The notes beneath the pieces were generated by a model that ran no database searches, had not been told where the DNA came from, and saw nothing but the letters and a program-made list of their open reading frames with translations. 64,000 nucleotides of DNA from Oscillospiraceae bacterium (GTDB lineage: Bacteria > Bacillota > Clostridia > Oscillospirales > Oscillospiraceae): positions 1 through 64,000 of the forward strand of contig JAFRIV010000030.1 of NCBI GenBank assembly GCA_017432615.1. Reading direction: 5' to 3'. Positions 1,222 to 54,321 of this stretch are shown here, piece after piece. A program made the translations under genes and the position numbers. Positions within the stretch are counted from its first letter, which is position 1, and the number at the start of each line of letters is the position of its first letter.

Positions 1222-2284
1222 GCTGCACACCCCCCTTAACTTTTTTCTTCCCCATTTTTGCCATTCTTGCTCTGACCGGTTCTGACTGAAGAACAATAAC
1301 CACGATAATGATTAAAGCTTTAAATGCCATGGTAGCTTCTGAAACAATACCGAAATAATAAACAAAAGTGATAATCGTACGGATGATGATCGATCCAACT
1401 ACCGTTCCGGCAAGGCTGAATTTACCACCTGCCATATTCGTCCCGCCAATGACAACAGCTAGAATTGCATCCATTTCGAAGTTGATTCCGAAATTGTTGG
1501 AGTCATTTGACATGACACGGCTGGCTGTGATCAGCCCGGCAATCCCGGAGAGAAAAGCTGTCAATGCAAAGACGATCATAATGATTTTTCTGGAATCAAT
1601 CCCGCTGAGTCGGCTTGCACTCGGATTGATACCGACCGATTCGACCATCGTTCCGAATGCCGTTTTTCGTACAAACAATGAGACGGCCGCCACCACCACA
1701 ATCGTAATAATAATCGGCATCGGCAGGAAGAAAAGACTTCCTTGTCCAATGACGCGGAAGGGGGAATAGAGCGTTGTAAACTGTTTGCCGTTTGTAACGA
1801 TCTGTGCAATACCGCGTCCACAAACCATCAATATCAGTGTGGCAATGATTGGCTGCATCCCAATTCTGGAAATCATAAAGCCGTTAAAAAGCCCCATCAA
1901 TATGCACACTGCCAGTGGCACCAGAATTACCAGAATAAACGGCTTAACGGTATAATCACCCGGTGTATTATAAATCAGAACATCCCACCGAAGAAATTTT
2001 AGTGCCAATGCGCCGCTGAGTGCCACAAGCGATCCCACAGAAAGATCTGTTCCTGCCAAAGCAATGACAAGCGTCATGCCCATGGCAATAATCGTGATCT
2101 CTGCAGAACGGTTAAGAATGTCGATCAGGCTGCCGTAAAGCATACCAGTTGCCGGCTGGTATTTAATGGAAAAGAAATCCGGGCGAATAATAAAGCATAC
2201 CAACAGGATCAACAGTTCCGCAACAACTGCCCAGGTAATCTTGGACTGCATGATGTTGGAAATATTAAACTGTTTCTTCTTCAT
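1214..2284 (-). CDS. ytfT: Sugar ABC transporter permease, YtfT-like
   Basis: Integral membrane permease of 356 residues in the RbsC/AraH/YtfT family, paralogous to the next gene. It carries the family signature GTDLSVGSLVALSGA around residues 79-93 and a VIGGTNMAGGKF segment near residue 280, which in this family lies at the ATPase interface. Its start overlaps the ATPase stop by four bases (ATGA at 2281-2284) and its stop overlaps the next permease, so the three genes are translationally coupled. It should act in the cytoplasmic membrane as one half of the channel. The galactofuranose-type specificity is inferred from operon order (Q-R-T-F), which matches E. coli ytfQRT-yjfF. Confidence 0.87.
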   Translation of the reverse strand: MKKKQFNISNIMQSKITWAVVAELLILLVCFIIRPDFFSIKYQPATGMLYGSLIDILNRSAEITIIAMGMTLVIALAGTDLSVGSLVALSGALALKFLRWDVLIYNTPGDYTVKPFILVILVPLAVCILMGLFNGFMISRIGMQPIIATLILMVCGRGIAQIVTNGKQFTTLYSPFRVIGQGSLFFLPMPIIITIVVVAAVSLFVRKTAFGTMVESVGINPSASRLSGIDSRKIIMIVFALTAFLSGIAGLITASRVMSNDSNNFGINFEMDAILAVVIGGTNMAGGKFSLAGTVVGSIIIRTIITFVYYFGIVSEATMAFKALIIIVVIVLQSEPVRARMAKMGKKKVKGGVQHA

Positions 2285-3798
2285 GCTGAAGCCCCTTCCT
2301 GCGTTCCCTCTGCAATAATACTCAGTATCGTCTGCTGTGTGCAGTCTTCCCCGTTGACCTCTCCGACTTTCTTCCCGTCACGCATGACGATAATCCGGTT
2401 AGAGCAGCGGATGATCTCATCCAGCTCAGAACTGATGAAAATAACAGAAACCCCGTCATTGCACATTTCAAGCATCAAACGCTGAATCTCCGCTTTTGCG
2501 CCAACGTCAATTCCACGGGTCGGTTCATCCAAAATCAAAAGATCCGGCTGTGTCGCCATCCAGCGGGCAAGAATCACCTTCTGCTGATTTCCGCCGGAGA
2601 GTTCACCAATCTTCTTTTCCGCATCCGGTGTTGCAATGGAGAGCATCTTGATATATTTTTCTGCCATTTCATTCTGCTCCTGCAAGGAAATCGGATGCAT
2701 AAATCCTCTTTTCGCCTGCAAAGCGAGAGCAATATTTTCTCGGATGGACAAATCCCCGATGATTCCGTCGCGTTTCCTGTCCTCAGGGCAAAAAGCCAGC
2801 TTTGCCCCGATTGCATCCAACGGTTTCTTTATGGAGACCTGTTTTCCGTTGATAACCTCTGTTCCTTCCGTAGCCGGAACAGCGCCGAAAATCAATTCTG
2901 CCGTTTCTGTGCGTCCGCTTCCAAGCAGTCCGGCAAAACCCACCAGTTCTCCTTTTTTCACTGACAGATTGACATTCTGAATTTGTCCAGGTGCTCCAAG
3001 ATTCTCTGTCTTCAGCATCTCCGGCGCATCCGCATCTACCGTTGCTCTCTTCAGATTGAATATGACGTCCATATCTTTCCCGATCATCCAGGTAACGAGC
3101 TTAAGTTTGGTAATATCATGGATGTCAAAGGTTCCAACAAGGGTTCCGTTGCGCAGAATCGTAAGCCTGTCACTGACAGCAAAAACCTGGTCCAGGAAGT
3201 GCGTAATGAAGATGATTCCCATACCTTCGGCTTTTAACTCATTCATTACATCAAACAGCAGCTTGACTTCGTTGTCATCCAAAGAAGAAGTCGGCTCATC
3301 CAGAATCAGGATTTTTGCATCAATATCCACTGCACGGGCAATGGAAACCATCTGCTGAATGGCTGTGGAATAGTTATTCAAAGGACGCGTGACGTCAATA
3401 TCCATATGGAATCTTGCCATCAGCTCCTGTGCTCTCCTGTTAATTTCTTTCCAGTTGATCACCCCACGTCGCATAGGCTGCCGCCCAACAAAAATATTTT
3501 CTGCGACTGTCAAATTCGGGCAAAGATTGATTTCCTGGTAAACCGTTGAAATGCCCATTGAGAAAGCATCCTGCGGGCTCGTAGGATGGATCTCTTTCCC
3601 GTCAAATAAAATGGTGCCTGCATCCATATGATGGACGCCTGTCAGGCATTTGATCAGTGTACTCTTCCCCGCGCCATTTTCTCCCAAAAGTGCGTGGATC
3701 TCTCCTTTTTTCATAGAGAAGTCCACTTTATCTAAAGCCTTTACGCCGGGAAACTGTATTTCAATGCCTTTCATTTCAAGTAAATTCTGATCCGGCAA
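2281..3798 (-). CDS. ytfR: Sugar ABC transporter ATP-binding protein, YtfR-like
   Basis: Cytoplasmic ATPase of 505 residues with two fused nucleotide-binding domains, usual for RbsA/MglA/YtfR. Domain 1 has Walker A GENGAGKST near residue 40 and Walker B ILILDEPTSSLD. Its signature is degenerate (NYSTAIQQM), normal in this family. Domain 2 has the degenerate Walker A GLLGSGRTE, an intact signature LSGGNQQK and Walker B LLILDEPTRG. It powers import of the sugar bound by the 3913-4908 protein. The start at 3798 is preceded by a TAAGGAGG ribosome site. Between the binding-protein gene and this gene lies a strong stem-loop (3856-3878) that should lower ATPase and permease levels relative to the binding protein. 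Confidence 0.9.
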   Translation of the reverse strand: MPDQNLLEMKGIEIQFPGVKALDKVDFSMKKGEIHALLGENGAGKSTLIKCLTGVHHMDAGTILFDGKEIHPTSPQDAFSMGISTVYQEINLCPNLTVAENIFVGRQPMRRGVINWKEINRRAQELMARFHMDIDVTRPLNNYSTAIQQMVSIARAVDIDAKILILDEPTSSLDDNEVKLLFDVMNELKAEGMGIIFITHFLDQVFAVSDRLTILRNGTLVGTFDIHDITKLKLVTWMIGKDMDVIFNLKRATVDADAPEMLKTENLGAPGQIQNVNLSVKKGELVGFAGLLGSGRTETAELIFGAVPATEGTEVINGKQVSIKKPLDAIGAKLAFCPEDRKRDGIIGDLSIRENIALALQAKRGFMHPISLQEQNEMAEKYIKMLSIATPDAEKKIGELSGGNQQKVILARWMATQPDLLILDEPTRGIDVGAKAEIQRLMLEMCNDGVSVIFISSELDEIIRCSNRIIVMRDGKKVGEVNGEDCTQQTILSIIAEGTQEGASA

Positions 3799-3912: not shown

Positions 3913-4908
3913 TTAATAGACGCGGCTGTCAATAACATCAGCAGCGAGGACAGAAGTGACGGTTCCAAGATCGATGCCGCCAACGCAGTCATACACGCCT
4001 TCTTCCGGATGAACAATCGTCTTCTCAAAGGTTTCGCCGGCTTCCAGGGCTTCGATGGTCTTCTCAACAAACGGGCCATAGAGCGGTGTGCATTCAACTG
4101 TGCAGTTCATTTCCCCAGCAACGATTGCTTCAAATGCAGCTTTAACAGAGTCGCAGCCGACGATGATGATGTCCTTGCCCGGCACAAGACCGGCAGCCTT
4201 GATGGCATCAATTGCGCCAAGGCCCATATCGTCGTTCTGTACGATCAGGACGTCGATCTTGTCGACAGACTTCAGCCATGCTTCCATAACAGCCTGTCCT
4301 TCGGTACGGGTGAAGTTACCGGACTGCTGAGCCACGAGCTTCATGTTGGGATATTCGGCAAGAGCAGCCAGGTTCCCTTCGGTACGGCCGACCTGAGCAT
4401 CAGCACCCGTGGTGCCTTCCATAATAGCAACAGCAACTTCTTCGTCACCGCGGCCGAGCGTCTTAAGATATTCGCCGGCCCATGCGACCTGACGACGGCC
4501 TTCTTCAACGAAGTCACCGCCGAATGCAGCAGCGTAGTCAATCTTATCTGCGCAGTCAGGCATACGGTCAACCAGGATCAGAGGGATCTCAGCCTCATTG
4601 ACTTCGGCAAGGACTTCATCCCAACCAGTGGAAACAACGCCGGTGAAAAGGATGTAGTCAACACCCTGGGTGATGAAGTTACGGAGTGCTTTGATCTGGT
4701 TTTCCTGCTTCTGCTGTGCATCATCATAGATAAGTGTCCAGCCGTCATGGCCTTCGATGGTCCCTTTGATGCTGTCGGTATTAGCGGTACGCCAGTCAGA
4801 CTCCTGACCAATCTGGGAGAACGCGACCTTGATGTCATCTGCAAAAGCGGTTACACCAAGAGCCATTACCATTGCCAGTGCAAGTACGATTGCGAGGATC
4901 TTTTTCAT
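3913..4908 (-). CDS. ytfQ: Sugar ABC transporter substrate-binding protein, YtfQ-like
   Basis: Exported binding protein of 331 residues, Peripla_BP_4 fold. It has a Sec signal peptide of about 23 residues ending AFA. The mature N-terminus resembles E. coli YtfQ closely: VAFSQIGQESDWR, then DAQQKQENQIKALRNFITQGVDYI, then a TGWDEVLAE block and LILVDR. YtfQ binds furanose forms of galactose, so galactofuranose-type ligands are the likely cargo; this is inference. No lipobox cysteine is present, unusual for a Gram-positive binding protein but shared by the others in this window. It is the first gene of its operon, with ribosome site AGAGG nine bases from the ATG. A good promoter and a 17-bp regulatory box lie upstream. 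A lipoprotein paralogue is encoded at 7518-8495. Confidence 0.9.
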   Translation of the reverse strand: MKKILAIVLALAMVMALGVTAFADDIKVAFSQIGQESDWRTANTDSIKGTIEGHDGWTLIYDDAQQKQENQIKALRNFITQGVDYILFTGVVSTGWDEVLAEVNEAEIPLILVDRMPDCADKIDYAAAFGGDFVEEGRRQVAWAGEYLKTLGRGDEEVAVAIMEGTTGADAQVGRTEGNLAALAEYPNMKLVAQQSGNFTRTEGQAVMEAWLKSVDKIDVLIVQNDDMGLGAIDAIKAAGLVPGKDIIIVGCDSVKAAFEAIVAGEMNCTVECTPLYGPFVEKTIEALEAGETFEKTIVHPEEGVYDCVGGIDLGTVTSVLAADVIDSRVY

Positions 4909-4936: not shown

Positions 4937-4948
4937 GGACATTTGTCC
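4937..4948 (-). promoter_or_regulatory. Leader dyad GGAC-N4-GTCC of the ytfQ-like operon
   Basis: A 12-base inverted repeat GGACAAATGTCC (minus strand) lies about 10 bases past the -10 box, near the expected transcript start. It is followed by a leader segment almost identical to that of the 10932-12053 gene, where GGACTATTGTCC occupies the same place. Confidence 0.5.
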
Positions 4949-4957
4949 TTGTTTCAT

Positions 4958-4986
4958 ATATAACCACAAAAAAAGAGAAAAAACAA
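4958..4986 (-). promoter_or_regulatory. Promoter of the ytfQ-like operon
   Basis: On the minus strand -35 TTGTTT (4986-4981), 17-base spacer, -10 TTATAT (4963-4958). Two direct half-sites (4989-5000 and 5011-5022) lie immediately upstream of the -35, as for an AraC-type activator that touches RNA polymerase. Confidence 0.6.
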
Positions 4987-4988
4987 CC

Positions 4989-5022
4989 GAATAATTTACG
5001 ATTTTTTGTTGAATATTTTACG
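4989..5022 (-). promoter_or_regulatory. Candidate binding site of the YesN-type regulator (two direct half-sites)
   Basis: On the minus strand CGTAAAATATTC (5022-5011) and CGTAAATTATTC (5000-4989) are direct repeats exactly 22 bases apart, two helical turns, as expected for an AraC-family dimer. The first, extended to CGTAAAATATTCAACAA, is repeated without a mismatch at 10818-10834 beside the regulator operon and the second transporter. Confidence 0.6.
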
Positions 5023-5043
5023 TTTCTCTTTGTGATCTATATA

Positions 5044-7380
5044 CTAAACAGCCATAATGAAGAGATGGACGAGCCATGCTGCGATCCATGCTATCATACA
5101 CTGCCAGGCCACCACTCCCACAGCCCATTTCTGCCCAAGCTCCCTTCGGATGGACGCAATAGCTGCAACGCACGGCGTGTACAGAAGAGAAAACACAAGC
5201 AGCGCAGCAGAAGCTGCGGCCGTCATAAAGGAGGAAACTTCCTGCCCGAAGAGGATCTCCATTGTCGACACCACACTTTCCTTGGCCAGAAAGCCGCTGA
5301 TCAGTGACGTGCAGATCCGCCAGTCTCCCAGTCCGATCGGCCGCATTAGAGGAACAAGCCATCCTGCAACGATTGCGAGAATACTGTTTTGCTGATCCTG
5401 CACCAGGTTGAAATGCAGGTCAAAACTTTGCAGCAGCCATATCACAACAGTAGCGACAAGAATAACGGTAAATGCTCTTGTAAGAAAGTCTTTTGCCTTT
5501 TCCCACAGCAGCTGCGTAACATTTTTTATCCCCGGCATACGGTAGTTTGGCAGTTCCATCACAAACGGGACAGCCTCCCCTTTAAAAAGGGAATTCTTGA
5601 ACAGCAGTGCAACGAAAACCGCCATCACAATTCCGAGAACATAAAGCCCTATCATAATAAGTGCTTTATACCCCGGGAAAAAAGCGTCTACAAAAAAGGC
5701 ATAAATCGGAAGTTTCGCCGTACAGCTCATAAACGGTGTAAGGAGGATCGTCATTTTGCGATCCCGCTCACTGGGTAATGTCCTTGTAGACATGACCGCA
5801 GGAACTGTGCACCCAAATCCGATCAGCATGGGGACGATGCTTCGTCCGGATAGTCCGATCTTTCGCAGCAGCTTGTCCATAAAAAAGGCAACTCGTGCAA
5901 TATAACCGCTGTCTTCCAGCAGCGAAAGGAAAAGAAAAAGAGTAACAATTATCGGCAAAAAGCTTAAAACACTTCCGACGCCGGCAAAAATTCCTTTTAT
6001 AATCAGACCATGCAGCACCTCATTGACGTTTGCCGCTGTCAGCCACCCGTCGACAAGCACCGTTAGTGTATCGATTCCCCTTTCCAGCCATTCCTGAAGT
6101 GTACCGCCGATCACATGGAAAGTCAGGTAAAATACAATTCCCATGATCAGTACGAACAAAGGGATCGCTGTCCATTTTCCGGTCAGAAGCCTGTCAAGTC
6201 TTTCACTGCGAATACTCTCTCTGCTCTTTCTTGTTCTTCTTACACATGCGCCGCACACACGATAGATAAAGGAATACCGCATATCCGCAATGGCAGCACT
6301 TCTGTCAAGCCCACGCTCCTTCTCCATCTGCAAAACGATATGTGCTACAGTCTCCTGTTCGTTCTCATCCAGCTTCAGCTGAGAAATAACCAATGGGTCA
6401 CCTTCAATAACTTTGCTTGCCGAAAAGCGAAGAGGCATCCCTGCATTCTCCGCATGATCCTGAATCAGGTGGGTAACGGCATGCAGGCATCGATGCACGG
6501 CACCTCCGTTCTCGTCCTCCCCGCAAAAGTCCTGACGAAGCGGTTTTTCCTGATAAGTAGCAATATGCACAGCATGCTCAATCAGCTCATGGATCCCCTG
6601 ATTTTTTGCTGCCGAAATCGGAACGACCGGCACCCCAAGGGCTGCTTCCATCTCGTTGACGTCGACCGAACCCCCGTTTGTTGTGATCTCGTCCATCATA
6701 TTCAACGCCACAACCATCGGTACATCCATCTCCAGCAGCTGCATGGTAAGATAAAGATTCCGCTCAATATTGGTTGCATCTACGATATTGATAACAGCTT
6801 TTGGTTTGCTGTTCATCACGAAGTTTCTGGAAATGATTTCTTCACTGCTGTAAGGAGACATGGAATAGATACCCGGAAGATCCGTTACCAGAGTATTGGG
6901 ATATCCTTTGATTGCCCCGTCCTTGCGATCCACCGTAACGCCGGGAAAATTCCCCACATGCTGATTGGCTCCTGTCAACTGATTGAAGAGTGTGGTTTTT
7001 CCGCAGTTTTGATTCCCAACCAGTGCAAACGTCAGAAGAGTGCCGTCCGGCAGTGGATCACCGGATCCTTTCGGATGGAATTTTCCGCCTTCGCCGAAGC
7101 CTGGATGCACCGAACTGTTTGCGCGTCGGTCCTGGAATCCGGATTCTTTTTGCCCGGAGCTTGCTCTGATATCGATTTTTGCTGCGTCATCCAGCCGCAG
7201 GGTAAGTGTATAGCCATGGATAGACAATTCTACCGGGTCCCCTAATGGCGCATATTTTATAACGGTCACCTCTGCGCCGGGAATCATACCCATATCGAGA
7301 AAATGCTGGCGTAAAGCCCCTTCACCGCCCACTGCTGTAATCACAGCCGAGCTTCCAACGGAAAGATCTTTCAGTGTCAT
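5044..7380 (-). CDS. feoB: Ferrous iron transporter, FeoA-FeoB fusion
   Basis: Membrane Fe(II) importer of 778 residues. Residues 1-72 form an SH3-like FeoA domain, joined by a 40-residue charged linker to FeoB. The GTPase has G1 GNQNCGKT (about 122-129), G3 DLPG (167-170), G4 NMMD (227-230) and G5 SAAKN (256-260). A FeoB-type helical stretch follows, then gate (nucleoside-recognition) membrane domains with GFGCTVPAVM and TPCVAAIASIRRELG. In many bacteria FeoA is a separate protein; here it is fused. No FeoC is visible. It sits between two sugar modules and stops 22 bases before the distal regulatory half-site of the ytfQ-like operon. I see no terminator there, so read-through is possible. 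A start ATG with GAGGA upstream supports 7380. Confidence 0.95.
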   Translation of the reverse strand: MTLKDLSVGSSAVITAVGGEGALRQHFLDMGMIPGAEVTVIKYAPLGDPVELSIHGYTLTLRLDDAAKIDIRASSGQKESGFQDRRANSSVHPGFGEGGKFHPKGSGDPLPDGTLLTFALVGNQNCGKTTLFNQLTGANQHVGNFPGVTVDRKDGAIKGYPNTLVTDLPGIYSMSPYSSEEIISRNFVMNSKPKAVINIVDATNIERNLYLTMQLLEMDVPMVVALNMMDEITTNGGSVDVNEMEAALGVPVVPISAAKNQGIHELIEHAVHIATYQEKPLRQDFCGEDENGGAVHRCLHAVTHLIQDHAENAGMPLRFSASKVIEGDPLVISQLKLDENEQETVAHIVLQMEKERGLDRSAAIADMRYSFIYRVCGACVRRTRKSRESIRSERLDRLLTGKWTAIPLFVLIMGIVFYLTFHVIGGTLQEWLERGIDTLTVLVDGWLTAANVNEVLHGLIIKGIFAGVGSVLSFLPIIVTLFLFLSLLEDSGYIARVAFFMDKLLRKIGLSGRSIVPMLIGFGCTVPAVMSTRTLPSERDRKMTILLTPFMSCTAKLPIYAFFVDAFFPGYKALIMIGLYVLGIVMAVFVALLFKNSLFKGEAVPFVMELPNYRMPGIKNVTQLLWEKAKDFLTRAFTVILVATVVIWLLQSFDLHFNLVQDQQNSILAIVAGWLVPLMRPIGLGDWRICTSLISGFLAKESVVSTMEILFGQEVSSFMTAAASAALLVFSLLYTPCVAAIASIRRELGQKWAVGVVAWQCMIAWIAAWLVHLFIMAV

Positions 7381-7403
7381 AGTTTGTTCCTCTATAATAA
7401 CGC

Positions 7404-7428
7404 CCCGGCAGGAAAGCTTCCCGCCGGG
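7404..7428 (-). terminator. Stem-loop between the sensor operon and feoB
   Basis: CCCGGC/GCCGGG with inner GGAA/TTCC pairing, about 90 bases past the stop of the lipoprotein gene and 24 bases before the feoB start. It could terminate the sensor operon or lie in the feoB leader. A weak promoter candidate (TTGACT-17-TTACAC, 7478-7450 on the minus strand) precedes it. Confidence 0.5.
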
Positions 7429-7449
7429 CTATGGATTTTGCTTTTTTAA

Positions 7450-7478
7450 GTGTAAGGGATAACGCATCGATTAGTCAA
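7450..7478 (-). promoter_or_regulatory. feoB: Possible feoB promoter
   Basis: TTGACT (7478-7473), 17-base spacer, TTACAC (7455-7450) on the minus strand. The -35 is good but the -10 is poor. I could not find a convincing Fur or IdeR box. Confidence 0.3.
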
Positions 7479-7517
7479 GCATAACACGGAAAGCAGTACC
7501 CAGGGATCTGTCAGATT

Positions 7518-8495
7518 TCAATATCCCCGGCTGTCAATGAGCTCTCTGGTAATGGTATCGCTGGAAAACGCAATTTCCTCCACATAGGAAAGCCGCGGCA
7601 ATTCTTCTCCCGCCTCACAGGCTTTAATGAGTGCATCTACCCTTGGTCCATGCAGCGGATTACATTCCACGCACAGGTCGATCTTACCCTTCAGGCATTC
7701 TTCCAGAGCATTCTTCACACAATCAAAAGAGACGATCTTTACCGTTCCTTCTTCCCCATAGGTAATGCCGGCTTCATCCATCGCCTGCATTGCGCCGAAA
7801 GTCATATTATCGTTTTCGCTGTACAGCAGATCAAACTTCCCACCTTCTGAAAGGAAATCACGGGTGACCTCATAGCCTTTGGCTTCGGTAAAATCGCCTT
7901 TCAGGGACGCCTCGATTTGCCAGGAGGGATGCGTTTCAGCAGCATCATACAAAGCTTTGCTGCGCATCAGAGAGGCAGTAGCCCCTTCCGTCCCCTGAAG
8001 GTGGAGGATCCGAAGCGGCCGGTCGGCAAACTGCCGGTCGATCCAGGCGGTCGCCTCTGTCCCTTCCCGGTAAAAATCAGATCCGACCCAGCTTCGATAA
8101 AGAGATTGATCTTCGACGTTGACCTGTCTGTCTACCAGAATTACCGGGATCCCTGCCGCCCGCGCCTCGGCAAGAACACTTTCCCAACCGGTTTCGGAAA
8201 TGGGAGCTATTACAATATAATCTACATCCTGCTGGATGAAGTTTCGTATCGCAAGATACTGATTTTCCTGCCGCTGCTTGGCATTGTCAAACAGAAGATG
8301 GTACCCGTTTTCCTCGCTGAGAGCTGAAACCATGGATGCGGTATTGGCCAGGCGCCAGTCTGACTCCGACCCTACTTGAGAAAAACCCACTACAATCAGC
8401 TTCTCATCAGTTTCTTCCTCCTTTGCCCTGTTGCAGCCAGCAAAGCAGCACAGTGGCAGGAGGCACAGCAAAAAGATAATGATCTTTCTCCTCAT
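7518..8495 (-). CDS. YtfQ-like sugar-binding lipoprotein, probable sensor subunit
   Basis: Peripla_BP_4 binding protein of 325 residues with a lipobox (PLCCFAGC, lipidated Cys about residue 21), so it is anchored to the outer face of the membrane. The mature part parallels the transporter protein at 3913-4908: GFSQVGSESDWRLANT, AKQRQENQYLAIRNFIQQ, SETGWESVLAEA, VILVDR, and a shared ending IDSRGY against IDSRVY. It is encoded last in a regulator-kinase-lipoprotein operon; its ATG overlaps the kinase stop (ATGA, 8492-8495). No permease follows it. This matches the arrangement of XylFII-LytS in Clostridium, where a binding protein presents the sugar to the kinase. I infer that it reports ligand to the kinase instead of feeding a transporter. 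A shared role as a second transporter receptor cannot be excluded. Confidence 0.85.
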   Translation of the reverse strand: MRRKIIIFLLCLLPLCCFAGCNRAKEEETDEKLIVVGFSQVGSESDWRLANTASMVSALSEENGYHLLFDNAKQRQENQYLAIRNFIQQDVDYIVIAPISETGWESVLAEARAAGIPVILVDRQVNVEDQSLYRSWVGSDFYREGTEATAWIDRQFADRPLRILHLQGTEGATASLMRSKALYDAAETHPSWQIEASLKGDFTEAKGYEVTRDFLSEGGKFDLLYSENDNMTFGAMQAMDEAGITYGEEGTVKIVSFDCVKNALEECLKGKIDLCVECNPLHGPRVDALIKACEAGEELPRLSYVEEIAFSSDTITRELIDSRGY

Positions 8496-9946
8496 TTTGC
8501 TTGCTTCTCCTCAGTTTCTCCCTCGTCCGGTTCATAGGGCATTTGGATCACGATCTCTGTTTCTTCCCCCATAACACTGTGAATGGTAAACGTACAGCGC
8601 TCACCATACAGCAGTTTCAGTCGCTTGTAGGCTGCAACCAGTCCGAAGCCCGGCATAGCATCGCTTTGCATTCCTTCCTGAATGGCGGCAAGAGTCTCCT
8701 CTGTCATGCCCATACCGGTGTCTTTTACCCGAAGCGTCACATAGGATGCGTCCCTCGTTCCTTCAATCAGGATCGCCCCGCCGCCCCGCTTGAGCTTGAT
8801 ACCATGGTAAAGCGCATTTTCTACCAAGGGTTGAAGTGTCAGCTTGGGAATACGGCATGCTTTGCATGTTTCATCGATACGGATCTGATAACTCAGGATA
8901 TCACGGTACCTTACCTGCTGGATCTCCAGATAGCTGCGGATGTGGCGCTCCTCCTCTTGCAATGTAATAATATCCTTGCCGTTGCTGAGGAATGATCGGA
9001 AGTAATTGGAAAGGCTGATGACCATTTCCTCCGCCTCTCCCGTCTTCCCAGTTTCAATCAGCCAGACAATAGTATCCAGCGTGTTATATAGAAAGTGGGG
9101 GCTGATCTGAGCCTGGATCAGTGCCAGTTCCATCCCCCGCAGGCGGATCTGTTCTTCATTGTAAAGCCGCATCTGCACATTGATCTGTTCCACCATTTGT
9201 TCCAGCCCGTTGCTGAGAGTCTGAAGTTTTTCATCCTCCGCGCAGATTGGCTGACGGGCATTCAAGTCCCCGCAGCCGATCTCTTTCACGCGGGTGTAAA
9301 GTGCATCGATCGGTTCGGTAATGCTCTCGGCAATGCGAAAAGTCTTTCGTGTCGTCCGCACCAGAAACAGCGCCACTACCCCTGCAACCGCAAAAATCTC
9401 GAACACAAGAATAAGGATAATACGCGATTGCATATTGGCCAGCACACCGGCTTCATAGTAAAGATAAGTATAGATATATTGTTCAATCAGCTCCGTGATT
9501 ACATACACATTGGCTTCCAGCAGATGCATCCTGGCATCATACCCGTCTGCACCGCGGATTTCCAGAATTCTGTTGCGCAGATTGTCGCAGAGGTTCAGAA
9601 CGCTGCGGATCGTACGATACCCTTCCCTGTTCGTGGTTCTGCCCAGCAACGTATAGGCAAGGTCACGGGCTGTGTCAACCTCCTCCAGAGGCAGAGTATC
9701 ACTGCTGCCGCTGACAAAGGAATACATTTTCAGATCCACTTCGTCTTTGAAGTTGTGGTTAAATCGGGAGGCTGTAGTTATATTCCCGCTTACCTGGGCA
9801 TACTGTATTGTGTAAATCACAAATACCGACAGAATCACAGCTGTCATGATGATAAAAGGAATCAGCATCTGTCGGATCAGGCTTCGAAGCTGAACATCGA
9901 TCGATCGGCTGCCGGGATCCGCTGCCTTACGGTACAGGCTCTTCAT
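8492..9946 (-). CDS. Sensor histidine kinase, LytS/YesM type
   Basis: Membrane kinase of 484 residues. TM1 spans about 27-49, a small extracellular part 50-172, TM2 about 174-197, then HAMP and a His_kinase domain with phospho-acceptor His in SPHFLYNTLD (about H284). The HATPase N box is LQPLVENALYHG (371-382). The extracellular part is short and helical, too small for a dCACHE sensor, which fits sensing through a partner binding protein. The start at 9946 is chosen over an upstream one because GGAGGG lies eight bases before it; this gives a 20-base overlap with the regulator gene. Its stop overlaps the lipoprotein start. It should phosphorylate the regulator at 9927-10733 when the lipoprotein binds sugar; this is inference from gene order. 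Confidence 0.9.
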   Translation of the reverse strand: MKSLYRKAADPGSRSIDVQLRSLIRQMLIPFIIMTAVILSVFVIYTIQYAQVSGNITTASRFNHNFKDEVDLKMYSFVSGSSDTLPLEEVDTARDLAYTLLGRTTNREGYRTIRSVLNLCDNLRNRILEIRGADGYDARMHLLEANVYVITELIEQYIYTYLYYEAGVLANMQSRIILILVFEIFAVAGVVALFLVRTTRKTFRIAESITEPIDALYTRVKEIGCGDLNARQPICAEDEKLQTLSNGLEQMVEQINVQMRLYNEEQIRLRGMELALIQAQISPHFLYNTLDTIVWLIETGKTGEAEEMVISLSNYFRSFLSNGKDIITLQEEERHIRSYLEIQQVRYRDILSYQIRIDETCKACRIPKLTLQPLVENALYHGIKLKRGGGAILIEGTRDASYVTLRVKDTGMGMTEETLAAIQEGMQSDAMPGFGLVAAYKRLKLLYGERCTFTIHSVMGEETEIVIQMPYEPDEGETEEKQAK

Positions 9947-10733
9947 GCGTTTTTCCCTCCCCGCTGCGGTACTCGCTGGGGGTGCATCCCTGCTGTTTTT
10001 TGAAAACAGAACTGAAGTACCGCGGGTCCCGATACCCGACTGCGAAAGCAATCTCTCCGGAGCGTTTGTTAGTCTGACGCAGAAGCTGCTTGGCCTGCCG
10101 AATCCGTTTTTCCGTCAGATACTCGACAAAAGAACTGCCTACTCTCTGTCCAAACACGGCGCTCAGATAGTTTGCGCTTACATTGACCGCTTTTGCCACT
10201 GCGTGGAGAGAAATATCTTCCTCACAAAAATGGGCATCAATATAGCGCAGCGCATCCTCCACAATTTCTCCGCTCCCTGTTTTTTCGAAAGGAGTATCAG
10301 GCTGTACAGTACTTTCTTCCTGTGTTAATTGCAGCAGCAGTGCACGTCGATGCTGTTCTTCTTCTATCCGTGCTCTTGTTGTCTTCAGCGCCTCAATCAG
10401 TTTTGTGCGTGTTACAGGTTTCAGGAGGTACTGGTCGGCCTGCATTTCAATAGCCTGCCTGGCATATTCAAAATCATCATAGCCGCTGATAAAAATAATC
10501 TTCGTTTCCGGTAATTCCTCCCGAACATGGCGGGCAAAGGTCAGCCCATCCATAAACGGCATACGAATATCGGTTAAAACCAGATCCGGGCGGATGGTGC
10601 GTACCATCTCCAGTGCTGTCTCACCATCGGATGCCTCTCCGGAAAAAAGAAAACCGCACGACTCCCAGGGGATGCTGTCACGAAGCGCTTCGCGGACGAT
10701 CACTTCATCCTCGGCAAGAAATACTTTCAGCAC
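9927..10733 (-). CDS. Response regulator, YesN type (REC + AraC DNA-binding)
   Basis: Cytoplasmic transcription regulator of 268 residues. Its receiver domain has acidic pocket EDE and phospho-acceptor Asp55 in LTDIRMP. The C-terminal AraC domain has two helix-turn-helix units, SLHAVAKAVNVSANYLSAVF and GEIAFAVGYRDPRYFSSVF. I place the start at the GTG at 10733 and reject the GTG at 10742, because the latter lies inside the Shine-Dalgarno GGGAGG (10747-10742), which is eight bases from 10733. It is the first gene of the regulator-kinase-lipoprotein operon. Its own promoter (10781-10809) is back to back with that of the second sugar transporter. The 17-bp box at 10818-10834 lies between them, so self-regulation is likely. 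Confidence 0.9.
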   Translation of the reverse strand: MLKVFLAEDEVIVREALRDSIPWESCGFLFSGEASDGETALEMVRTIRPDLVLTDIRMPFMDGLTFARHVREELPETKIIFISGYDDFEYARQAIEMQADQYLLKPVTRTKLIEALKTTRARIEEEQHRRALLLQLTQEESTVQPDTPFEKTGSGEIVEDALRYIDAHFCEEDISLHAVAKAVNVSANYLSAVFGQRVGSSFVEYLTEKRIRQAKQLLRQTNKRSGEIAFAVGYRDPRYFSSVFKKQQGCTPSEYRSGEGKTHEEPVP

Positions 10734-10780
10734 GAAAAACACCTCCCAAACACGTGTACAGGGTAAACTTCCTCACGAGC

Positions 10781-10809
10781 ATTGTACCTGTACTGGTATA
10801 AAAAAGCAA
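10781..10809 (-). promoter_or_regulatory. Promoter of the regulator-kinase-lipoprotein operon
   Basis: Minus strand -35 TTGCTT (10809-10804), 17-base spacer, -10 TACAAT (10786-10781), about 48 bases before the GTG start. The shared 17-bp box begins eight bases upstream of this -35. Confidence 0.6.
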
Positions 10810-10817
10810 CACAGAAT

Positions 10818-10834
10818 CGTAAAATATTCAACAA
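10818..10834 (+). promoter_or_regulatory. 17-bp regulatory box shared with the ytfQ-like promoter
   Basis: CGTAAAATATTCAACAA is identical to the minus-strand sequence 5022-5006. It ends 18 bases before the -35 of the second transporter promoter, with its core half-site 23 bases away; at the ytfQ-like promoter the core half-site is 24 bases from the -35. A weaker second half-site may lie around 10840-10851. It is the likely target of the regulator at 9927-10733. Confidence 0.6.
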
Positions 10835-10852
10835 TTCCAATGATAAAAAGAA

Positions 10853-10881
10853 TTGACGATTTTGCCATTTCGTGGTTTATT
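10853..10881 (+). promoter_or_regulatory. Promoter of the second sugar ABC operon
   Basis: TTGACG (10853-10858), 17-base spacer, TTTATT (10876-10881). The -10 is weak, as expected for an activated promoter. A GTGG just upstream of the -10 is shared with the ytfQ-like promoter. Confidence 0.5.
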
Positions 10882-10889
10882 ATTATATA

Positions 10890-10901
10890 GGACTATTGTC
10901 C
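10890..10901 (+). promoter_or_regulatory. Leader dyad GGAC-N4-GTCC of the second sugar operon
   Basis: GGACTATTGTCC near the expected transcript start, followed by AAAAATATCTAAGAAAGAGG, almost the same as the ytfQ-like leader. It could be an operator or an RNA element that both transcripts carry. Confidence 0.5.
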
Positions 10902-10931
10902 AAAAATATCTAAGAAAGAGGTATGGAAAAC

Positions 10932-12053
10932 ATGAAAAAAATCCTGGCACTTATTCTGGCACTTACCATGATCCTGAGCCTTGGGATCACCGCAAGCGCG
11001 GCCAACGACAAGATTAAGATCGGTATCTCCATTTGGAGCTCCACAGATACGCTTGGCAGTGAATGCAAGCGTATTATCGATGCTGCTGCTGACGCACTGG
11101 GGGTTGAAACGCAGTGGGTCGACCAGGCTCATATCTCCGAGCAGGTCACAGCATCTGCTGAGACCCTCGCTTTGGCCGATTGTGACGGTATTATTATCTG
11201 CAACTCCGCTTCCGCAGAAATGGGCTCTGTCATCAAGACCTGTGATGAGAACGAAGTCTATGTTGCACAATTCTTCCGTGTAATCGATCCGGAAGCCAAC
11301 CCTGACGAGTATGCACAGGCATGTGCTTCTCCCTACTATGTAGGTGCCGTGCATGAATCCGAGTTTGATAACGGCAAAACGCTTGTCACCATTCTTGCCG
11401 ACAAGGGTTGCCGCAAGATCGGTCTCGAAGGCTGGGAACCGGGCGATGCGACCTTCCTCGGCCGTTGGGCTGGCTACCAGGCTGGTGTAGAAGAGTGGAA
11501 TGCCGCACATGCCGATGATCCTGTCACTCTCCTTGAGCCTCAGTATGGCCGCACCACCACCGACACCGGCCGTGCTACCGCAGAAGCCATTATCCAGGCT
11601 AACCCTGACATTGATGCTCTGATCGTTGCAGGCGGCGGCGGTGATACCCTTCTCGGCGCCATTGCAGGCATCGAAGGTCTCGGCCTCACAGGGAAGATTG
11701 CTGTTGCCTCTACCGACTTCCTCCCTGACCTTGATGTGAAGCTGGAAACCGGTGCTATGGCCGCTGAGTCCGGCGGACATTACGCTGATCCGTTCTTCGC
11801 TTTCCTGATGGTCTACAATGCTATTAAGGGCAATTATGAAGTTTCTACCGACGGTTTCTATGATATGGTCTTCCCGTACATGTTTGTTGCTTCCCCTGAA
11901 GACTATGCCGCCTACGGTCAGTACTTCACCGGCACTGAGCTTCCGTACTACACCGATGAGATCGTTGCTCTTGCTGACATGAGCTATGACGATCTTGCTG
12001 CTGCATGCGCAGAGCTGTCCGTTGCTGACGTTGTTGCACGTCACGCCGGTTGA
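10932..12053 (+). CDS. Sugar ABC transporter substrate-binding protein (Peripla_BP_4)
   Basis: Exported binding protein of 373 residues with a signal peptide MKKILALILALTMILSLGI...ASA (about 23 residues). The mature protein opens KIKIGISIW and has the two-lobed Peripla_BP_4 pattern: a DGIIICNSAS segment, a KIGLEGWEPGDATFLGRWAGYQAG segment and DALIVAGGGGDTLLGAIAGIEG. It is only distantly related to YtfQ, so the sugar is not evident. The ATG at 10932 is preferred over 10923 because AGAGG is ten bases from the former and one base from the latter. It is the first gene of a four-gene operon (binding protein, permease, ATPase, permease) divergent from the sensor operon. It shares its promoter box and leader with the ytfQ-like operon, so both probably respond to the same signal. 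Confidence 0.87.
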   Translation: MKKILALILALTMILSLGITASAANDKIKIGISIWSSTDTLGSECKRIIDAAADALGVETQWVDQAHISEQVTASAETLALADCDGIIICNSASAEMGSVIKTCDENEVYVAQFFRVIDPEANPDEYAQACASPYYVGAVHESEFDNGKTLVTILADKGCRKIGLEGWEPGDATFLGRWAGYQAGVEEWNAAHADDPVTLLEPQYGRTTTDTGRATAEAIIQANPDIDALIVAGGGGDTLLGAIAGIEGLGLTGKIAVASTDFLPDLDVKLETGAMAAESGGHYADPFFAFLMVYNAIKGNYEVSTDGFYDMVFPYMFVASPEDYAAYGQYFTGTELPYYTDEIVALADMSYDDLAAACAELSVADVVARHAG

Positions 12054-12071
12054 TTATTAACCGAATTCCCG

Positions 12072-12103
12072 GGGTGCGGGTCTTTGACCCGCTCCCTTTT
12101 TTT
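12072..12103 (+). terminator. Stem-loop with T-run between binding protein and permease
   Basis: GGG-T-GCGGGTC / GACCCGC-T-CCC stem with a TTT loop (12072-12096) followed by seven T. It looks like a full intrinsic terminator inside the operon, so permease and ATPase expression depends on read-through. Confidence 0.75.
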
Positions 12104-12125
12104 AAGCAGGGAGGAAACGCAAAAC

Positions 12126-13076
12126 ATGTCAAAAACACTTGAGAAGCTGAAAGCCAGCCGATACTACGGGCTTGTTCTGCTCGGCGCCATGCTTCTGTTT
12201 TTCTATGGGGTCTTTAAGATCCTGACCCCGGGGAACTTCGGTTCCCTCAGCAATCTGTATACTTATCTGCAGTCTTCCATCATTTACTCCGTGGGCGGAT
12301 GCGGGTTATACTTTATTGTGGTAATGGGGCTGTTTGATTTCGCCGTAGGCGCAAATATCGTGCTTTCATCCATTGTAGGGGTAATCCTGTCCAGTAAGTT
12401 TGGCTATGCAGGTTTTATCCTCGGTTGTCTGGGCTGCGGCACTCTGATCGGCTTTCTCATCGGCATGCTCTACAACAATCTGAATGTTCCATCCATGATT
12501 GTAACCGTTGGCCTTATGCTGATTTTTGAAAGCGTTGCCGTCTTCGTGGCCGGCGGCGTCAAACAGACGCTTGCTCCGGAACTTCGTTTCTTTTCCGGGG
12601 CCCCCGGCAACATCATTCTGGCAGGGCTGGCCTTTCTTCTGATGTATTTCATTTTGAACTATACCAAGATCGGTACATACTGCAACGCGATCGGCAGCAA
12701 CGAATTCACCGCTAAAAACATGGGCATCAATGTGAAAAAGTATAAACTCATCGGCTTTATGCTTTTACACTTCTTTGTGGGTATTATGGCTATCCTGACG
12801 GTTTCCTACGGCACCACAATGACAGCTCTCACCGGCATGAGCACTATGAGCCGTAACTTTCAGCCTCTGATGGGTACTTTCTTCGGTGTTGCCTTCCGAA
12901 AGTACAAAATGCCCATTACTGCCATCATTGTGGGGGAATTTATTATCTCCATCATCTTTAACGGCTTTGTTGCTCTCGGTGCTCCGACAACGATCCAGAA
13001 TGTTGTTACCGGCGGTGCACTGCTGGTGATTGTTTCTCTTACCGCCCGTGGCGGTAAGGGCAGTGTTGTAAAGTGA
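12126..13076 (+). CDS. Sugar ABC transporter permease (BPD_transp_2)
   Basis: Membrane permease of 316 residues in the RbsC-like family, with about eight to ten hydrophobic helices. The motif MGLFDFAVGANIVLSSIVG replaces the usual GGIDLSVG. A later GMSTMSRNFQPLMGTFFGV segment lies where the family contacts its ATPase. The start at 12126 is chosen because GGGAGG lies 11 bases upstream; an ATG at 12084 has no ribosome site and falls in the stem-loop region. It pairs with the permease at 14604-15581; the ATPase gene lies between the two permease genes, an unusual order for this class. Substrate unknown, inferred to be a sugar. Confidence 0.85.
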   Translation: MSKTLEKLKASRYYGLVLLGAMLLFFYGVFKILTPGNFGSLSNLYTYLQSSIIYSVGGCGLYFIVVMGLFDFAVGANIVLSSIVGVILSSKFGYAGFILGCLGCGTLIGFLIGMLYNNLNVPSMIVTVGLMLIFESVAVFVAGGVKQTLAPELRFFSGAPGNIILAGLAFLLMYFILNYTKIGTYCNAIGSNEFTAKNMGINVKKYKLIGFMLLHFFVGIMAILTVSYGTTMTALTGMSTMSRNFQPLMGTFFGVAFRKYKMPITAIIVGEFIISIIFNGFVALGAPTTIQNVVTGGALLVIVSLTARGGKGSVVK

Positions 13077-13088
13077 GGAGGGATAATT

Positions 13089-14588
13089 ATGGATAAGAAA
13101 CCTCTCCTTATTGCCGAACATATTGACAAACGTTTTGGTATTACGCATGCCGTCAACGATGTCTCTCTGACCATCGATGCCGGAGAAATCCGAGGTCTCA
13201 TTGGGGAAAACGGGTCCGGAAAAAGCACATTTTCTCAGATGTTATGCGGCATTTATACTATCGGAGGCGGCTCCTTCACCCTTGATGGAGAAAAACTGCA
13301 TATTCGTAATCAGGTGGAAGCTAACAATGTCGGTATTGCCATAATTGTGCAGGAGATGGGGACGCTCTCCGGTCTCACTGTGGCGGAAAACATTTTCCTC
13401 GGCCATGAAGAGCCATTTATGCACTTCGGGATCAAAGATACCGGGGCGATGAACCGGGAAGCTCAGCGCTTGCTCAATGAGTACGGTTTTGGACGGATCA
13501 AAGCTGCCGATATGATCGATCACTATAATTTTGAAGACCGCAAACTGGTGGAAATTGTCAAAGCGACCTACAGCAAGCCGAAGATCCTTGTAGTTGATGA
13601 GACGACGACGGCTCTATCACAAAATGGTCGTCTGGAACTGTACAAAATTATGGATGCCGTCCGTGCTGACAATCGCACGGTAATCTTCATCAGTCACGAC
13701 CTGGGTGAAGTGCTTGCACATACCGACAGTGTCTCCGTACTTCGTGACGGCGAGTATATTGATACCGTTCGTTCTTCTGACGTGACGGAAGATGACCTGA
13801 AGAGGCTGATGGTTGGCCGCGAGATCGGCTCCGCCTACTACCGCACAGATTATGGCCAGAAGATTTCGGAAGAGGTTGTCCTCAAAGTAGAGAACGTCAG
13901 CGTTCCCAAAGAAATCCGCAATATTAGTTTCTCCCTTCATAAAGGAGAAATCCTTGGATTCGGCGGTCTTTCCGAATGCGGTATGCACGAAGTCGGAAAG
14001 GCGATCTTCGGCGCTTCCTGGGACAGGTCCGGCAGCGTCACCCTTGCCGATGGAACCGTTATCAGCAATATTCCTACAGCCATTCGTCATTCGATTGCCT
14101 ACGCTTCGAAAGACAGAGACAATGAATCGATCATTCTGAATGAATCGATCCGCAACAACGTGGTGCTTCCGTCCATCGACGATCTGGCAAATCGTGGTCT
14201 TCTGAATCAGCGCAAACTCACACAATTTGCCGAGAAGCATGCTGCCGATATGCAGACGAAGATGCAGAATGTAAATCAGTTTGTCTCTGATCTGTCCGGC
14301 GGCAATAAGCAGAAGGTGGTTTTGGCCCGTTGGATCGGAAAAGGCAGTGACATCCTGGTGCTGGACTCTCCGACGCGCGGTATCGATGTAAAAGTCAAAC
14401 AGGCTATCTATGCGCTGATGTCGGAGCTGAAAGAACAGGGCAAATCCATCATTATGATCTCGGAAGAGATCCCTGAATTGCTTGGTATGGCTGACAGGAT
14501 CCTCATCATGAAAGACGGTGTGATCAACGGAGAATTTCTCCGCCATCCCGAATTAAGTGAAGAAGATCTGATTGAAAAAATGGTGTAA
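13089..14588 (+). CDS. Sugar ABC transporter ATP-binding protein (two-domain, RbsA/MglA class)
   Basis: Cytoplasmic double-domain ATPase of 499 residues. Domain 1 has Walker A GENGSGKST near residue 40 and Walker B ILVVDETTTAL with the catalytic Glu, but its signature LSGGQ is replaced by a YNFEDRKLVEIV stretch. Domain 2 has a degenerate Walker A (GGLSECGMHEVG), an intact signature LSGGNKQK, and Walker B ILVLDSPTRG in which the usual Glu is Ser. One composite ATP site therefore looks active and the other dead, a stronger asymmetry than in the YtfR-like paralogue at 2281-3798. Ribosome site GAGGAGGG precedes the ATG. Flanked by its two permeases in one operon. Confidence 0.9.
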   Translation: MDKKPLLIAEHIDKRFGITHAVNDVSLTIDAGEIRGLIGENGSGKSTFSQMLCGIYTIGGGSFTLDGEKLHIRNQVEANNVGIAIIVQEMGTLSGLTVAENIFLGHEEPFMHFGIKDTGAMNREAQRLLNEYGFGRIKAADMIDHYNFEDRKLVEIVKATYSKPKILVVDETTTALSQNGRLELYKIMDAVRADNRTVIFISHDLGEVLAHTDSVSVLRDGEYIDTVRSSDVTEDDLKRLMVGREIGSAYYRTDYGQKISEEVVLKVENVSVPKEIRNISFSLHKGEILGFGGLSECGMHEVGKAIFGASWDRSGSVTLADGTVISNIPTAIRHSIAYASKDRDNESIILNESIRNNVVLPSIDDLANRGLLNQRKLTQFAEKHAADMQTKMQNVNQFVSDLSGGNKQKVVLARWIGKGSDILVLDSPTRGIDVKVKQAIYALMSELKEQGKSIIMISEEIPELLGMADRILIMKDGVINGEFLRHPELSEEDLIEKMV

Positions 14589-14603
14589 GGGAGGGTAAGC
14601 AAG

Positions 14604-15581
14604 ATGAATAATGAAACCATTCGGGAACCGTCCAGGTTCCGGGATAAACTCCGGGCTTTCTTCGGCAGCGATTCCTTCAAAGGCCTGCTTCCCTTCATCG
14701 GCCTTGTGGTCATCATCATTGTGATGAATATCCTGACGCAAGGCAAGATCCTGACCGCCAAGCGTCTTCGTCTGTTACTGTCTCAGGTCTATTATCCGAT
14801 GATCGTGGCTACCGGCGTATTCTTTGTGATGACACTCGGCTCCATTGACTTTACGGAGGGCTCCACTTTGGGGCTTGCCTCTATCGTCATCAGCAAACTG
14901 TCCTTTTACAGCATCCCGCTGGCTATTCTCGGCGGCATACTTACAGGCGCTGCCATCGGTGCAATCAATGGCTTTTTCCATGTAAAATTCAAGCTGCAGA
15001 GCTTCATCATCACCATTTGCACGATGTATCTTTTCCGCGGTGTTTGTGCATATATGACCACGGAAACGGCTGTGCCCGCCAGCGCCGCCATTAAGGCATT
15101 GGATCAGAACTGGCTGAAGATTACCATCACGGTCGCTGTGCTGGTGATTGCCTGGTTCCTCTTCCGCTTTACCAGGATTGGAAATGATGTAAAAGCCGTC
15201 GGATCCGGAGAGACAGCCGCGCGTTTTTCCGGCGTCCACACCGACAGGGTAAAGTTCCTGGTCTTTGTAGCCGCCGGAGCCCTGACCGGTCTTGCCGCCT
15301 TTGTCAACGTAATCAAAGTAGGTTCCATTACCTCTACTGCAGGCAACCAGTTGGAAACGCAGATCCTGATCTCCCTTGTTTTGGGCGGATTGCCGATCAC
15401 CGGCGGCGCCAAGGTGCGGTTTTCCAATATTGTCGTCGGTACACTGATGTACACCATTTTAAACAACGGCCTTGTTATGATGGGGTTTGAAAGCCAGACG
15501 CAGCAGCTGATCAAAGGCATCATTTTCCTGCTGTTTGTTGCCCTGACAATTGACCGCAAGGCGCTGAAAGTCATTAAGTAG
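14604..15581 (+). CDS. Sugar ABC transporter permease (BPD_transp_2)
   Basis: Second membrane permease of the operon, 325 residues, RbsC-like. It shows MTLGSIDFTEGSTLGLASIV in the position of the family motif GGIDLSVG, and LVLGGLPITGGAKVRFSNIVVG near residue 265 as the ATPase-contact loop. The ribosome site GGGAGGG lies just upstream of the ATG, 15 bases after the ATPase stop. It should heterodimerise with the permease at 12126-13076. Downstream is a long inverted repeat (15612-15662) shared with the convergent gene. The substrate is unknown. Confidence 0.85.
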   Translation: MNNETIREPSRFRDKLRAFFGSDSFKGLLPFIGLVVIIIVMNILTQGKILTAKRLRLLLSQVYYPMIVATGVFFVMTLGSIDFTEGSTLGLASIVISKLSFYSIPLAILGGILTGAAIGAINGFFHVKFKLQSFIITICTMYLFRGVCAYMTTETAVPASAAIKALDQNWLKITITVAVLVIAWFLFRFTRIGNDVKAVGSGETAARFSGVHTDRVKFLVFVAAGALTGLAAFVNVIKVGSITSTAGNQLETQILISLVLGGLPITGGAKVRFSNIVVGTLMYTILNNGLVMMGFESQTQQLIKGIIFLLFVALTIDRKALKVIK

Positions 15582-54270: not shown

Positions 54271-54320
54271 AAAAACGGCAATCAGCTGACGTCCGGAAGG
54301 ACCATCTCTGTTTGCCGTTT
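54271..54320 (-). terminator. Terminator after the second YesN-type regulator gene
   Basis: AAACGGCAA / TTGCCGTTT outer stem with an inner GGTCC-TTCC-GGAC hairpin, directly after the stop at 54322, followed on the minus strand by a T-rich tail. Confidence 0.8.
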
Positions 54321-54321
54321 G

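Follow-up and report, generated by a model that had tools for sequence, protein, structure and literature searches.

Two sugar transporter operons in the genome of an Oscillospiraceae bacterium (assembly GCA_017432615.1, contig JAFRIV010000030.1, positions 1 to 64,000; this whole stretch of 64,000 nucleotides is called the window below) are preceded by an identical 17-bp box, CGTAAAATATTCAACAA, and flank a trio of genes for a lipoprotein, a sensor kinase and a response regulator, which raises the question of whether the box is where this trio acts and which sugar it would sense. The two copies stand at 5006-5022 on the minus strand, before a ytfQRT-yjfF operon (transporter 1), and at 10818-10834 on the plus strand, before a divergent operon for a second ABC transporter (transporter 2). 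From comparison with related loci, the most likely role of the box is that of an operator for the lipoprotein/YesM/YesN system, and to the model as a whole, in which an arabinose-type three-component sensor would act through its regulator at the box and activate both transporters, we give a probability of about 75%.

In this model the trio genes (10742-7518, minus strand) would form a sugar-sensing three-component system. We infer that the YtfQ-like lipoprotein binds a monosaccharide outside the cell, most likely in the furanose form and with L-arabinose as best candidate; from what is known of these families, the lipoprotein would engage the YesM/LytS-type kinase at its extracytoplasmic part, and the kinase would in turn phosphorylate the receiver of the short AraC-type regulator. 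The regulator would then bind TCGTAAAATATTCAACAA just upstream of the -35 hexamer, where at promoter 1 a second, partial copy 22 bp further on touches the -35, and would activate two weak promoters, that of ytfQRT-yjfF from the box at 5006-5022 and that of the divergent transporter from the box at 10818-10834.

The three genes lie side by side on the minus strand. The response regulator (9927-10742) has 271 amino acids, with a receiver (Response_reg, PF00072) and an AraC-type DNA-binding domain (HTH_18, PF12833); the kinase (8492-9946, its start likely at 9946 by alignment) is of the YesM/LytS type, with His_kinase (PF06580, 92 bits) and HATPase_c domains; and the sensor lipoprotein (7518-8495) is YtfQ-like (235.8 bits; PDB 6hb0, 220 bits). 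Its lipobox cysteine, Cys21, follows a hydrophobic leader and is invariant in 11 sequences including that of the window, a membrane anchor predicted by reading the sequence. The binding-protein gene thus adjoins the kinase and regulator and is separate from that of the transport binding protein, and relatives have the same trio; the lipoprotein-kinase-regulator system of the original prediction is supported.

Within the window, the box is found at up to three mismatches at just those two sites, against a chance expectation of 0.15, and only 1 of 100 window shuffles had two or more such matches. Across the whole assembly (2.40 Mb in 50 contigs) it occurs exactly twice, both times in the window; a scan at one or two mismatches found none, six places match with three, and the reversed pattern, used as a control, gave three matches at up to three mismatches. 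The identical box at its two positions is confirmed, as are the distances first read from the end of the core CGTAAAATATTC to the proposed -35 hexamers, 24 bases to TTGTTT (4986-4981) and 23 to TTGACG (10853-10858).

Relatives were taken from a family-level sample and from 80 named loci (the best 80 of 578), whose record titles are mostly those of Clostridia metagenome assemblies, many from ruminants, with a few isolates. The trio is found beside a ytf-type operon in the family-level sample and in most of the 80 named loci; in L082, L118, L119 and L134 the lipoprotein is present and the kinase and regulator are not in the fetched stretch. Motif discovery in 38 non-redundant 400-bp regions upstream of ytfQ-type operons by orthologous sensors, with the window excluded, yielded TCGTAARATATTCAACA, and the matrix from these relatives scores the window boxes at 21.5 bits (site 1) and 24.9 bits (site 2). 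On leaving one out, 36 of the 38 regions reached at least 13 bits, against 1.05% of shuffles, a slightly circular figure since the sites were chosen with the full matrix.

Mismatch counts to the window box are untouched by matrix training. In the group with similar regulators, 34/49 upstream regions carry the box with at most four mismatches (31/46 distinct ones, three contigs having been fetched twice), against 4.8% of shuffles, and 17/49 with at most three (16/46 distinct), against 0.66%. Four of the remaining 19 regions have it at up to four mismatches: L051, whose regulator lies outside the locus, L128, with 46% identity in its DNA-binding domain, and two loci that seem misassigned, L090 and L110, their BLAST segment having extended past the HTH. 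In the clade with a divergent sensor kinase, the box is found at up to four mismatches in 0/11 loci and the matrix maximum is 9.0 bits; the HTH lies within the stretch in 9/11 of them and is 38-48% identical. As to the co-occurrence with the regulator raised in the original prediction, the box is associated with this sensor lineage in the relatives. As separate observations, L175 (G173:C20) has a 22-bit box at 1500-1517, next to a sugar ATPase fragment and a different kinase/regulator pair (37% and 33%), which may be a second regulon with a similar operator, and L127, which is Clostridium sporosphaeroides DSM 1294, has a diverged system with an 11-bit site.

Both transporters probably belong to one regulon, as their gene order and upstream regions in a second genome suggest. 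Transporter 1 (minus strand) consists of a YtfQ-like binding protein (3913-4908; 261.5 bits; PDB 6hyh, 248 bits), a YtfR-like ATPase (2281-3798; 719.6 bits, cut-off 850), a YtfT-like permease (1214-2284; 274 bits, cut-off 535) and a YjfF-like permease (157-1215; BPD_transp_2; NCBIfam PRK11618, 328 bits, below the curated cut-off of 363); the cut-off of 510 for the YtfQ equivalog NF041827 is missed both by the transport protein and by the sensor. Transporter 2 (plus strand) is a distant sugar ABC system of a binding protein without strong family match (10923-12053; Peripla_BP_4, 41 bits), a permease (12084-13076; BPD_transp_2), an ATPase (13089-14588; sugar ABC ATPase families below cut-offs) and a second permease (14604-15581; GguB/RbsC-type families below cut-offs). 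Genome G307, of the same genus, has the whole locus except FeoAB, with transporter 1 at 91-94% identity, the lipoprotein at 72%, the kinase at 64%, a short regulator and the divergent transporter 2 at 88-93% (93, 92, 88 and 92% in gene order). At both of its promoters a box-like site stands 37 bp from TTGACG, with a partial second copy ending at TTGACG, and its boxes share TTCAAACAA with each other in place of the TTCAACAA of the window. The FeoA-FeoB fusion gene (5044-7380, minus strand; Pfam FeoA, FeoB_N and FeoB_C), between box 1 and the sensor operon, is missing at that place in G307 (L194) and is probably outside the sensing system.

Control of two transporters, as first proposed, thus has the arrangement and the box-like sites of G307 in its favour, but transporter 2 is seen at only 1/15 fetched same-genus sensor loci (G307 alone). 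The sensor search matched 18 of 102 genomes of the genus, the window's own and G307 included; apart from the window's own genome, relatives of transporter 2 turned up in two among 300 genomes of the family, one of them at 29% identity, and in none among 394 genomes of the order. Genome G320 (L195) combines a window-type sensor and promoter with a different ytf operon (34-54% identity), apparently through replacement of the transporter while the control module stayed constant. In L071 a promoter of the remote type stands before a transporter like that of the window (89-96%), so that transporters and control modules appear to have been reshuffled. Two further genomes agree with the model, but they are few: G224, of the same genus, has transporter 1 at 83-88%, with no kinase (E 1e-25) and no box in the expected orientation, and in G278, with transporter 2 at 53-68%, no kinase was found and the fetched stretch contains no box above 13 bits. 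The further claim that the system controls itself lacks general support: sites above 13 bits occur in 3/78 regulator upstream regions (L048 and L064, both strong, and L089 at 13.2 bits) and the window box near the regulator gene points away from it; autoregulation was rejected as a general feature, and is possible in L048 and L064.

A strict consensus scan detected neither transporter promoter in the window, the hexamers being weak, a failure that would fit weak, activator-dependent promoters. For transporter 1 we propose a -35 (TTGTTT, 4981-4986, minus strand), not picked by the scans, in the register of TTGACG in L059, G307 and G320, and a -10 (TTATAT, 4958-4963, minus strand), missed by the scans and read in the register of the L059 alignment; our own promoter score chose a different hexamer pair there. 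For transporter 2 the proposed -35 (TTGACG, 10853-10858, plus strand) was found by this score and missed by the strict scan. This register is supported by L059, G307 and G320, which have TTGACG-N17 equally far from a box-like site. The distance from box to -35 is 36-37 bp in L059, in G320, at both promoters of G307 and at window promoter 2, and, by reading, 37 bp at window promoter 1.

The original prediction had also placed a second half-site exactly 22 bases on at site 1, the geometry of an AraC-family dimer. The spacing is right, but the proximal half-site CGTAAATTATTC (4989-5000, minus strand, by sequence reading) is a partial copy, its likeness limited to the first 12 bases and its score with the 18-bp matrix -4.7 bits. 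Over 68 regions, 29 second sites are strong (above 9 bits), and they lie most often at 22 bp from the best site: 16 are found there and 10 at 31-32 bp.

The distance from the box to the promoter also follows a pattern in the relatives. From a set of 47 regions, 31 passed the filters (box of at least 15 bits, acceptable -35/-10) and 29 fell within the range of 60-200 bp, L059 (37 bp) and L103 (215 bp) lying outside it. At these 29 promoters the box is 86, 107-108, 128-129, 138-140, 147-150 or 158-160 bp from the -35, and of all periods from 7 to 15 bp one of 10.5 bp fits best (R = 0.91), with a cluster-level p of 0.0006 that overstates independence. A tandem of 21-22 bp alone gives spacings 21 apart, so that the independent part is the sharing of one phase by the 86, 107, 128/149 and 139/159 groups; the one-turn shift between the 128/149 and 139/159 groups would be hard to explain without selection on the helical face. 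If this 10.5-bp operator-promoter phase holds with independent promoter mapping, it would be evidence, from sequence only, of a working activator site.

The regulator itself differs from its orthologues in lacking their middle region, a feature absent from the account given in the original prediction. Its 271 amino acids compare with about 530-540 in orthologues (534-601 in 11 complete long orthologues, counted from the first start codon), some 270 middle residues being gone by alignment, and this places it outside the length class of long YesN regulators (about 530-560 amino acids with a receiver-HTH middle region). The loss looks stepwise, from long to about 361 and then to 271 amino acids, because L059 keeps the second half of the middle region and the regulators of both L059 and G307 have 361 amino acids. 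The long regulators (~530-540 amino acids) go with boxes 86-160 bp upstream of the -35 on one helix face, which suggests looping or a long reach, whereas the short-regulator clade (~361 and 271 amino acids) has its box at a distance of 36-37 bp and has lost from the locus both the AraR-like repressor gene and the motif of that gene, and two of its members have a second transporter under the same kind of promoter. It is tempting, although rather doubtful, to propose that the middle region allows action at a distance and that its loss went with a changed mode of the regulator. Counter to this, a proximal inverted pair occurs together with a regulator of full length in L041 and L121 (one contig), L103 does not fit the phase, and the switch is limited to one clade and to the weak case of L053 (regulator of 365 amino acids, proximal site of 7.9 bits). 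In L041 (5759-5800) and L121 this pair is an inverted tandem of box-like sites near the -35, and no AraR-like gene was found there. Full-length, shortened and minimal regulators form a natural series that could reveal the role of the YesN middle region, and the phased operator of the relatives, set beside the shortened regulator of the window clade, makes this a testable question. Elsewhere in the window, another receiver-AraC regulator (54316-55059, minus strand; 39% to the 271-amino-acid regulator) adjoins an ABC permease (55101-55958) and an SBP_bac_1 binding protein (56992-58242).

Several observations weigh against the box as the operator of an activating regulator. At site 2 the matrix found no second half-site at +22 (-23 bits), and at window site 1, L059, G307 and G320 the second copy is a partial match with a negative score. 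The boxes of G307 are themselves weak, at 12.6 and 11.7 bits, and upstream in G224 a site of 13.4 bits stands on the opposite strand. The 36-37 bp of the window clade are off the distance lattice of the relatives, L103 at 215 bp is half a turn off phase, and the phasing filters and the search range for the -35 were fixed after a first look. L128 keeps the box despite its diverged DNA-binding domain, so that the link to domain divergence is not strict, and the related loci share descent, which makes their counts not independent. A shortened pattern, searched at up to one mismatch in the genomes of 12 relatives, gave 13 matches against six for the reversed control; two of the 13 lay beside related genes, and G224, which is without the kinase, had two. 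A wider regulon drawn from this shortened pattern alone was rejected as too unspecific.

As for the ligand, in 32/53 related loci (at least one contig counted twice) the stretch beyond yjfF contains araA, araD or an FGGY kinase, an association suggesting L-arabinose as the best candidate; FGGY kinases are present in 31 of these 53 loci, araD in 29 and araA in nine, with AraA and AraD above curated cut-offs and the kinase XylB-like and below its cut-off. The original prediction had taken the sensor to be galactofuranose-type, which these linked genes do not favour and which we regard as unlikely, even though YtfQ is the nearest named family, E. coli YtfQ is reported to bind D-galactofuranose as well as L-arabinose (PMC10191376), and regulators of the AraR-type GntR/LacI family are tied to galactose as well as to arabinose and xylose (PMC4494728). 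Counting for galactofuranose and against arabinose, araA was not found at E 1e-20 in the window genome (an 87%-complete assembly) or in G307. Genes for AraD and an FGGY kinase are present in the window genome, and the 20 kb around each contain no box. The transport binding protein reads ESDWR in the window and ESGYR in three aligned relatives; according to PMC10191376, YtfQ-like proteins include L-arabinofuranose binders, one of them specific for this sugar, and members that bind arabinose do not differ in their binding-site residues from those that bind galactose, so that sequence cannot decide the ligand. Arabinose is a main plant-fibre sugar and a likely signal for this sensor family.

A less probable alternative, and one we consider quite improbable, is that the identical box is the trace of a recent promoter duplication and that site 2 is not a working operator. 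The two operons have similar leaders and signal-peptide starts, and site 2 is without a second half-site. Against this, the box is identical at 17/17 positions whereas the following 37 nucleotides, between the box and the GTGG preceding the -10, agree at 12/37 before the leaders become nearly alike again, and the second-transporter promoter of G307 keeps a box-like site in its own variant, though a weak one (11.7 bits). In both window leaders a palindrome, GGAC-N4-GTCC, was read (4937-4948, minus strand, and 10890-10901, plus strand) and is followed by AAAAATAT; the palindrome is also present in the leaders of L059, G307 and G320, other relatives having different short leader hairpins, and hairpins in the 5' leaders show a weak excess over single-base shuffles (10.0 vs 8.25).

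It is very improbable that the box serves a different regulator, such as an AraR-like GntR/LacI repressor, and only accompanies the trio: although such a gene is present in 45/68 loci with an annotated transporter start and has a second motif, AAGTTGTATTTATGCA, near it, none was found beside the window system (the window genome gives at best two weak matches, of 64 and 53 bits, compared with 601 bits in G174 of the same genus), L059, L099, L116 and L128 keep the box with no AraR-like gene found in their fetched stretches, and it is AAGTTGTATTTATGCA that tracks the AraR-like gene (29/42 with it and 0/6 without, among loci with a box of at least 15 bits, a partly circular count since this matrix was trained on mostly AraR-carrying loci). 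Where present, the AraR-like gene lies between sensor and transporter (L065:10944-12014, L089:11409-12464, L062:10997-12061 and relatives), and AAGTTGTATTTATGCA stands about 145 bp before the transporter.

The reading preferred here, a three-component sensor acting at the box, has precedents. In Geobacillus stearothermophilus, AraPST senses arabinose through a trio of binding protein, kinase and regulator, a likeness by description, not by sequence. A Geobacillus system is also mentioned in PMC10384115. In the open-licence PubMed Central literature, we found no description of a YtfQ-type trio or of the box motif, and nothing on YesN with direct repeats. For a sensor family of many rumen and gut Clostridia, most of them known from metagenomes only, the box and its neighbours offer an operator and a regulon that can be tested. 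Transporter 1 and the sensor are both closest to the GafABCD and YtfQRT-YjfF furanose transporters, for which a linkage to arabinose genes is reported too (PMC10191376); the available part of that work describes no three-component sensor, and the window proteins are below the NCBIfam equivalog cut-offs. The AraC-type two-component regulators GxgRS and BxgRS of Caldicellulosiruptor bescii are alike in their local control of sugar transporters, GxgRS being listed with the monosaccharide transporter GxgABCA1X, and for three of five such regulators, inferred to be activators, mapped promoters are preceded by tandem-repeat sites (PMC8579813); organism and sugars differ. XylFII-LytS of Clostridium beijerinckii (Sun 2015, as cited in PMC10384115), to which the original prediction had likened the system, also couples a second binding protein to a LytS-type kinase and holds as a working analogue, but it senses xylose, and the window lipoprotein is YtfQ-like (235.8 bits) and not of the XylF family (35.3 bits). 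CuaDSR, for cellobiose in Ruminiclostridium cellulolyticum, likewise has a separate lipoprotein (CuaD), a kinase and a YesN/AraC regulator, adjoins an ABC transporter with its own binding protein and is reported to trigger cuaABC-cbpA expression; it differs in sugar, in binding-protein family and in its regulator of 538 amino acids, in which a stretch of 318 amino acids, lacking in the window regulator, separates receiver and HTH (PMC10384115). Such systems are already known, and what is new here is a member with an unusual regulator and promoter.

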